Shown here piece by piece: positions 18,820 through 64,000 of a stretch of 64,000 nucleotides of DNA. The notes beneath the pieces are model-generated. The model had not been told where the DNA came from, did no database searches, and was given only the letters and a program-made list of their open reading frames with translations. The DNA is from Palaeococcus pacificus DY20341 (GTDB lineage: Archaea; Methanobacteriota_B; Thermococci; Thermococcales; Thermococcaceae): assembly GCF_000725425.1 (NCBI RefSeq), contig NZ_CP006019.1, positions 744,001 to 808,000 on the forward strand, given 5' to 3'. The translations under genes and the position numbers were made by a program. Each line of letters opens with the position of its first letter. Within the stretch, counting starts at the first letter, position 1.

Positions 18820-19187
18820 TGTGTCTTTTTCTTTGTACATGTTTATCATTTTTATGTCAATTTAATGGCACTATTTGGAGATGTTTTATCATGAGTTTGT
18901 TAATTATCCAAGGGCTTACTCTTTTTGCAATTATTTTGTATTGTGGGGGTTGGGGGTTATTGGGTGGAGCCCCCGAACAGGGGGCCCAAAGCCCTGGTGC
19001 CAAGACGGCGGCGTCGAGGGGAGCGAGGGCAAAGCCCTCACAATGAACCCCGCCCTCCAACCAAGGGCACAACACAATGCGCTCTCGAGGAAAACCCCAA
19101 CCGGGGGAACCCTCGGGAGTAAGACAGGCCCAACACCCCAACCAAACCCCGGACGGAATGCGATTTTCACATCGCGGCCGACTCCCA
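18820..19187 (+). other. rRNA operon promoter and leader region
   Basis: No coding gene is supported here; ORFs through the GC-rich half are compositional. The AT-rich part (18820-18940) must hold the rRNA promoter, though I cannot pick one convincing TATA box (gcaattattttg near 18927-18938 is a candidate). From about 18943 the leader becomes GC-rich and forms hairpins such as gccccc/gggggc. The 5' arm of the pre-16S processing stem is at 19124-19157. Confidence 0.5.
19124..19157 (+). other. pre-16S processing stem, 5' arm
   Basis: The segment beginning ACAGGCCCAACACCCC and ending CCCCGGACGGA is complementary to 20673-20706 (beginning TCCGTCCGGGG, ending TGTTGGGCCTGT), allowing small internal loops. 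Together they enclose the 16S gene and form the stem cut at a bulge-helix-bulge by the splicing endonuclease. Confidence 0.75.
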
Positions 19188-20960: not shown

Positions 20961-20970
20961 GAAGGGCGTG
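20961..20970 (+). other. predicted target 1 of C/D sRNA 2 in 23S rRNA
   Basis: GAAGGGCGTG forms 10 uninterrupted Watson-Crick pairs with the D guide of the sRNA at 63314-63373; predicted modified base G20964. Confidence 0.55.
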
Positions 20971-21108: not shown

Positions 21109-21119
21109 AAAGCAAAAGC
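21109..21119 (+). other. predicted target 2 of C/D sRNA 2 in 23S rRNA
   Basis: AAAGCAAAAGC forms 11 uninterrupted Watson-Crick pairs with the D' guide of the sRNA at 63314-63373; predicted modified base G21112. Confidence 0.6.
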
Positions 21120-62698: not shown

Positions 62699-63325
62699 AT
62701 GGTAAAGCTCATAGCCTTCGATCTTGAAGGGACGCTGGTAAAATCAAAATCGAGCTGGGTGGAATTACACAAACGCTTCGGCACCTGGGATAAAGGAAAA
62801 GAATATGCAGAGCGGTTCTTTAGGGGTGAGTTTGATTACGCGACGTGGGCGGAGCTTGATGCTTCCCTCTGGAAAGGGCGGAAGAGAGAGGAGATTATGG
62901 AGTGGGCCAACAGTGTTGAGTACTTGGAAGGCGTTGAAGAGCTCTTTGCGTTTTTGAGAGTTAATAACTTCAAAATAGCTATCATAAGCGGTGGCCTGCT
63001 GTGCTTGGCTAAGCGCATTGGAGAGGAGCTTAAAGCGGACTACGTCTTTGCAAATGAGCTGGTTTTTGATGAGGAAGGAAGAGTAACGGGTAAAGTGCTT
63101 CCATGGGTGGACTTTAGAAATAAGGGAGACATTCTGCTCGAACTTAAAGAGAAGCTTAAGCCCGAGCTTACCATAGCTGTTGGAGACGGCCATAATGACA
63201 TTGCGATGTTTAAAGTGGCCGATGTCAGCATTGCAATAAACCCACATGAGGGCGTTGAGGGAGATTATTTAGCGAAGAACCTGAAGGAAGTGAAAGAGAT
63301 TATAGCAAAAATCTTGGGTCAGTGA
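62699..63325 (+). CDS. HAD-family phosphatase, SerB-like
   Basis: 208 aa. HAD motif I is AFDLEGTLV (Asp nucleophile; the usual second Asp is Glu, as in several archaeal SerB-like proteins), motif II IISGGLL, and motif III/IV VGDGHNDIAMF. Cap-domain helices lie between residues 15 and 75. The family includes phosphoserine phosphatases and other small-molecule phosphatases; the substrate is not certain. ATG 62699 follows aggtgag. The last codons and the stop overlap a C/D sRNA on the opposite strand. Confidence 0.82.
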   Translation: MVKLIAFDLEGTLVKSKSSWVELHKRFGTWDKGKEYAERFFRGEFDYATWAELDASLWKGRKREEIMEWANSVEYLEGVEELFAFLRVNNFKIAIISGGLLCLAKRIGEELKADYVFANELVFDEEGRVTGKVLPWVDFRNKGDILLELKEKLKPELTIAVGDGHNDIAMFKVADVSIAINPHEGVEGDYLAKNLKEVKEIIAKILGQ

Positions 63326-63373
63326 AGGGCGTGTTCGTCACAGCTCGGCAAAGCAAAAGCTCATCATCCCCAA
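63314..63373 (-). ncRNA. C/D-box 2'-O-methylation guide sRNA (prediction 2)
   Basis: Read on the minus strand: terminal-stem TTGGG, box C ATGATGA (63367-63361), 12-nt guide GCTTTTGCTTTG, box D' CCGA (63348-63345), 3-nt spacer, box C' GTGACGA (63341-63335), 12-nt guide ACACGCCCTTCA, box D CTGA (63322-63319), stem CCCAA. Both guides have the canonical 12-nt length. The D' guide pairs with 23S 21109-21119 (11 bp) and the D guide with 20961-20970 (10 bp), predicting Gm at 21112 and 20964. A TATA box (ctttttaaatc, 63400-63390) sits about 25 nt upstream of the 5' end. It lies between two convergent genes, antisense to the HAD gene end. Confidence 0.82.
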
Positions 63374-63401: not shown

Positions 63402-64000
63402 CTAAAGGCCCGCCATCTTGAGGACGAGCCACCAGAAGATGTCGCCGTAAAAGATAGAAATCAGAAATCCCAGGAACAAAGCGGGGGCAAAAGGCATGGC
63501 CTTCTTAACTAAAAAGCTGTTTTCAAGCTTTCCTTCTTCGACAAGAGCTTTGAGCTTCTCAAGCTGTTCCCTCCTAATTCCTTCCGCTGTTGGGGAAGTA
63601 ATGACATTCCCATAGCTTGGCTTTAGGATGCTCAAATCACCGCTCGCAAAGGCCTTTTTGAACTTGTCAAAGAAGCTCTCTCTGTCTCTCAGCACTTCTC
63701 CATCTTTTTCGTAAATCCACTCCCCTATGATGTCCCACTCTTTAATCTCCTCGATGGGCTTTTCCTCAACCAAAACCTCTTCTCTAAGCACTTTAACAAT
63801 GGAGAAGAATATTTTGAAGACATATAGTGCCACAAGCAGCTTTAAGTATGCGTAGATCATATCTAGTCCTATTGAATAAAGCCCGTATGCCAGAGCTAGG
63901 ATGCCCAAGACATCGCCTGCCTTTTTAAACCTGCTGAGTATCGTGATTAGGGCTATCGTTATGAGATACCTGACCGCAGGGTTGAGCGTTATTCCAAGCT
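63402..64000 (-). CDS. probable archaeal prepilin peptidase (A24 family), C-terminal part, runs off the window
   Basis: The frame is open through the window edge, giving at least 199 residues; the gene starts beyond 64000. Membrane segments ITLNPAVRYLITIALITIL, VLGILALAYGLYSIGLDMIYAYLKLLVALYVF and a C-terminal APALFLGFLISIFYGDIFWWLVLKMAG bracket a cytoplasmic loop of about 90 residues. FKKAGDVLGILALAYGLYSIG resembles the GxGD region of A24 aspartic prepilin peptidases, which cut class III signal peptides such as those of archaellins and pilins. Only the C-terminal half is visible, so the call rests on this one motif and the layout. Confidence 0.5.
   Translation of the reverse strand, partial: LGITLNPAVRYLITIALITILSRFKKAGDVLGILALAYGLYSIGLDMIYAYLKLLVALYVFKIFFSIVKVLREEVLVEEKPIEEIKEWDIIGEWIYEKDGEVLRDRESFFDKFKKAFASGDLSILKPSYGNVITSPTAEGIRREQLEKLKALVEEGKLENSFLVKKAMPFAPALFLGFLISIFYGDIFWWLVLKMAGL

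Follow-up and report, generated by a model that had tools for sequence, protein, structure and literature searches.

The window analysed here is a 64,000-nucleotide stretch of the genome of Palaeococcus pacificus DY20341, which consists of one contig of 1,859,370 bases. Near the end of the window, the convergent genes for a HAD-family hydrolase and an archaeal A24-peptidase C-terminal domain protein flank a C/D-box sRNA encoded on the minus strand (Table 1). A sequence-only reading of the window had placed this RNA in space between two convergent genes that ORF-based annotation would leave blank. The location between the genes holds, but the space is not entirely blank: the last 12 nt of the RNA (63314–63325) overlap the hydrolase gene in antisense, covering its final codons and stop. 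Most antisense snoRNAs of T. kodakarensis are reported to overlap gene ends in this same manner (PMC4247193).

Table 1. Features of the sRNA, its neighbours and its 23S rRNA targets, in window coordinates
Feature	Position	Strand	Basis or remark
HAD-family hydrolase gene, convergent neighbour	62699–63325	+	3′ end antisense to the sRNA; same neighbour in non-Pyrococcus relatives
A24-peptidase C-terminal domain protein gene (archaeal), convergent neighbour	63402–63998	−	leaves the window; same neighbour in relatives
TATA-like box, TTTTTAAA	63393–63400	−	likely sRNA promoter
Probable sR9 orthologue, C/D-box sRNA (C/D half of snoR9)	63314–63373	−	anatomy, complementarity, RF00065 match, 85 orthologues
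Closing stem, 5′ arm UUGGG	63369–63373	−	sequence; pairs with CCCAA 63314–63318 (5 bp)
Box C, AUGAUGA	63361–63367	−	AUGANGA kept across parsed orthologues
Guide 1, GCUUUUGCUUUG, precedes D′	63349–63360	−	11 bp to 23S 21109–21119
Box D′, CCGA (consensus CUGA)	63345–63348	−	relatives: CUGA in 28/36
Box C′, UGACGA (consensus UGAUGA)	63335–63340	−	relatives: UGAUGA in 28/36
Guide 2, ACACGCCCUUCA, precedes D	63323–63334	−	10 bp to 23S 20961–20970
Box D, CUGA	63319–63322	−	sequence
Closing stem, 3′ arm CCCAA	63314–63318	−	sequence
Guide 1 target	21109–21119	+	predicted 2′-O-methylation at G21112 (23S G204); segment unchanged in Thermococcaceae 23S read
Guide 2 target	20961–20970	+	predicted 2′-O-methylation at G20964 (23S G56); segment unchanged in relatives' 23S read

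Read 5′ to 3′, the RNA opens with UUGGG and a single G, followed by box C (AUGAUGA), guide 1 (GCUUUUGCUUUG), box D′ (CCGA) and GCUG, and continues with box C′ (UGACGA), guide 2 (ACACGCCCUUCA), box D (CUGA) and CCCAA. The ordered boxes C, D′, C′ and D, with guides of about 12 nt, are those of an archaeal C/D-box sRNA, although D′ and C′ each depart from the consensus by one base. We scanned both strands of the 64-kb window with a C/D descriptor that carries no guide requirement, and this RNA was the sole match; the 200 dinucleotide-shuffled windows that served as the control contained no comparable motif, not even the box arrangement. The folding energy of the RNA is uninformative alone (z = −0.03), a flat signal that is expected of an RNA shaped by proteins.

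Both guides are complementary to 23S rRNA just before their respective D′ and D boxes, and both target segments, which lie 148 nt apart in domain I, are intact in the 23S sequences read from 24 Thermococcaceae relatives. The four boxes, the two guides of exactly 12 nt, the 5 bp UUGGG/CCCAA closing stem, the Watson-Crick runs of 11 and 10 bp and the two N+5 bases, G21112 and G20964, all agree with what had been read from the window alone. For a random 12-mer, a run of at least 11 against rRNA has a probability of ∼0.0013, a run of at least 10 of ∼0.008, and a run of 9 of 0.04. In 16S, neither guide finds a complementary stretch of 8 nt or longer. In the literature searched, we found no published 2′-O-methylation of these two 23S bases in any Thermococcales species.

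A covariance-model search, which the sequence-only reading had suggested as a check, returns Rfam RF00065 (snoR9) with 45.5 bits (E = 3.2e-9), on the C/D part alone. RF00065 corresponds to the Pyrococcus sR9 locus, where the H/ACA guide Pab21 is followed by the C/D guide in one transcript (PMC2241582, PMC4652768). Because the model describes this fusion and the H/ACA half is absent here, the Palaeococcus pacificus copy does not reach the 90-bit threshold set by the curators and lies outside the family as curated. In P. abyssi, RF00065 matches at 230,449–230,575(−), with a C/D half that carries identical guide cores. Since these are the coordinates at which snoR9 has been published and detected by RNA-seq (230,449–575(−); PMC4652768), the match counts in favor of sR9 orthology.

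The boxes, both guide cores and the 23S targets of Pyrococcus sR9 are all the same as those of the Palaeococcus pacificus copy; the differences lie in the surroundings. In Pyrococcus, Pab21 opens the transcript and sR9 forms its 3′ half, whereas in Palaeococcus pacificus the H/ACA half is missing from the unit and the promoter stands directly before the C/D part. The genomic location differs too: the Pyrococcus copies are not flanked by the HAD-hydrolase and A24-peptidase-like genes. Other archaeal C/D sRNAs in Rfam (sR12, the sR9 of RF01312, sR28 and others) share the architecture and mechanism, but their guides differ, and their weak matches are due to the boxes. Judged on these comparisons, the RNA is very probably (probability about 0.94) a C/D-box methylation guide orthologous to Pyrococcus sR9, which makes up the C/D part of snoR9 in Rfam. 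The sRNA is already known from Pyrococcus (sR9/snoR9) and is largely ordinary; the earlier reading was unaware of this, and of the H/ACA half that precedes the guide in relatives.

sR9 was recovered from 85 of the 94 Thermococcaceae genomes, by a strong RF00065 match in 83 and by DNA search in two. Guide core 1 (CTTTTGCTTT) is identical in every one of the 83 orthologues that fit the full box pattern, and guide core 2 (CACGCCCTTC) in all but one, in which CATGCCCTTC keeps the pairing via G-U. The remaining two orthologues fall outside the strict box pattern, and both cores are present in these too. Unlike the guide cores, the D′–C′ spacer varies freely among relatives. This constraint, which falls on precisely the bases that pair with rRNA, is the strongest evidence of function. 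Exact-pattern searches of a species-genome collection revealed no sR9 outside Thermococcales, all records found being Thermococcales and on draft-genome contigs only, and the other families of the same phylum that were examined gave no match. Nearly a third (24/83) of the RF00065-matching genomes score below 90 bits, nearly all of them lacking the H/ACA half or having a longer spacer, so that real sR9 genes escape standard annotation.

The D′–C′ spacer has expanded from 3–5 to 15–22 nt in nine genomes of genus g3 (loci L182, L185, L188, L191, L192, L193, L196, L219 and L220) and is often able to form a hairpin there; the form of the C′/D′ loop has therefore changed in these genomes, with both guides kept. 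Three genomes (G077, G082 and G086) at first seemed to have lost the C/D half, a reading that was rejected because their guides are whole, only set behind a lengthened D′–C′ spacer.

The TATA-like box begins 32 nt ahead of box C, the appropriate distance that had been claimed for it, and lies immediately behind the stop codon of the minus-strand neighbour gene. The spacing is the same, ∼32 nt, in two relatives that carry the C/D part only (the congener G002, and G005), and is 30–63 nt in genus g6, which is also C/D only. In the H/ACA-bearing relatives the TATA-like box is mostly ∼90 nt ahead of box C; the difference of ∼60 nt equals the length of the H/ACA hairpin. The TATA-like box keeps its place ahead of the sR9 unit in either orientation, whether the H/ACA half is there or not. 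Three findings strongly support the reading of this RNA as a C/D-box sRNA that carries two guides to 23S and has its own promoter: the Rfam match, the near-invariance of the guide cores across 85 orthologues, and the way in which the promoter travels with the gene.

Pab21, the 5′ half of RF00065, belongs to the same transcription unit as sR9 in relatives (PMC4652768). We found no H/ACA half upstream of the Palaeococcus pacificus C/D guide, and a model of this half (R1) revealed no Pab21 elsewhere in the genome, in searches that scored part of the first-look candidates and so leave a small probability of a very diverged copy. Pyrococcus carries the H/ACA half, as do most genomes of genera g3 and g5, but the genus of Palaeococcus pacificus, g4 and g6 lack it. 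Several individual genomes depart from an intact fusion: the half is a broken remnant in G006 (locus L055) and G030 (L054), is degenerate-looking in G098 (L138), has only its tail left in G108 (L140), and is lost in G084 (L139) and G109 (L141). At all of these loci the C/D guides are intact, whether Pab21 is broken, cut short or missing. The Pab21 pseudouridylation guide has, to all appearances in these sequences, decayed repeatedly across relatives. In the 23S tree, a branch (97/100) sets the H/ACA-bearing genomes apart. Because the backbone of the RpoB tree is without resolution, a single gain of the fusion and several losses of it both stand, despite this branch.

Relocation of Pab21 was considered and rejected: the R1 matches followed up outside the sR9 locus are Pab35/HgcF, Pab91 or Pab105. 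A candidate second copy of snoR9 in G005 (C6:14233–14355) is likewise Pab105, without C/D guides of the sR9 kind. Other guide RNAs lie in or near the window. The H/ACA RNA Pab19 (RF02794, 83.6 bits) is found at 18969–19071, directly before the 16S gene, the same position as that reported for Tko-19 in T. kodakarensis (PMC4247193). A further C/D sRNA lies ∼2.9 kb past the window (L065:4104–4158, genome C1:810903–810957 (+)); its best match is sR39 (RF01122), at 37.7 bits against a cut-off of 50.

Synteny in relatives, also suggested as a check, is complete in the genomes that could be parsed: sR9 lies beside the same two convergent genes in 74 of 74 non-Pyrococcus genomes, with the Pyrococcus copies elsewhere. 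Its orientation is that of Palaeococcus pacificus in 64 of these and reversed in 10, among them the congener G002, so that a flip has occurred within the genus. Orientation variants are represented by loci L002, L021, L005, L178, L194 and L211. The tree of the two neighbour proteins implies at least three changes of orientation, two of which are forced by well-supported branches. In six genomes, including that of the congener G001, the HAD gene adjoins the A24-peptidase-like gene and the slot between the two is empty of sR9 (L230, L231, L232, L233, L234 and L236), which argues that sR9 is dispensable. Taken together, the occurrence of both orientations and of empty slots indicates an autonomous but dispensable unit.

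If the RNA acts as a conventional methylation guide, transcription would start ∼26 nt behind the TATA-like box, and the resulting RNA of ∼60 nt would fold into a C/D kink-turn and a C′/D′ loop. As in established C/D biology, L7Ae, Nop5 and fibrillarin would assemble on it. Both guides would pair with nascent 23S rRNA at the two places in domain I, allowing fibrillarin to methylate the 2′-OH of each base that pairs five positions upstream of box D′ or D, predicted to be G21112 and G20964. The guides might instead serve chiefly to hold these two parts of domain I together, with methylation secondary or absent. The sequence-only reading had pointed to such a role in rRNA folding, which would suit two guides directed to one domain 148 nt apart and has been put forward for certain archaeal dual guides (PMC4644070). 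However, the proposed chaperone sRNAs bind both strands of one rRNA helix (PMC4644070), whereas the sR9 targets are neither opposite strands of one helix nor adjacent in secondary structure: in the Rfam LSU model they pair with different partners, each within its own local hairpin or stem. The folding role is therefore without specific support, and we regard it as very unlikely.

The missing H/ACA half, together with the broken H/ACA remnants in some relatives and the empty slot in others, could suggest that the Palaeococcus pacificus copy is a decayed and non-functional remnant of the H/ACA-C/D fusion. This is highly improbable given that all boxes, both guide cores, the closing stem and the promoter are intact, and that C/D-only copies are retained throughout genus g6 as well. 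Chance might also produce such a motif in intergenic DNA, given the shortness of C/D boxes and the fact that 12-mers with a 9- or 10-nt match to rRNA are not uncommon (p = 0.04 and 0.008). Against this, the box arrangement is found in 0 of 200 shuffled windows and the guides are near-invariant in 85 genomes; conservation already refutes this explanation, the probability of which is negligible. A functional sR9 methylation guide is the reading that we retain.

What modest surprise the locus holds is the turnover around sR9, with its flips, its empty slots and the gain or loss of an H/ACA module. It is possible, though doubtful, that sR9 is a promoter-plus-guide cassette that has been rearranged unusually often, by flips within one fixed slot between the two convergent genes, by loss that leaves those genes unharmed, and by gain and loss of Pab21. 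If true, genomes like that of Palaeococcus pacificus would truly lack the rRNA pseudouridine guided by Pab21 and would constitute a natural test of its importance. The sRNA enlarges the ribosome-modification set of an archaeon by one gene, and illustrates how sR9 slips past curated thresholds: the Rfam model is a two-guide fusion that is absent from many Thermococcaceae. The family-wide comparison makes testable the fate of an rRNA pseudouridine once its guide is lost.
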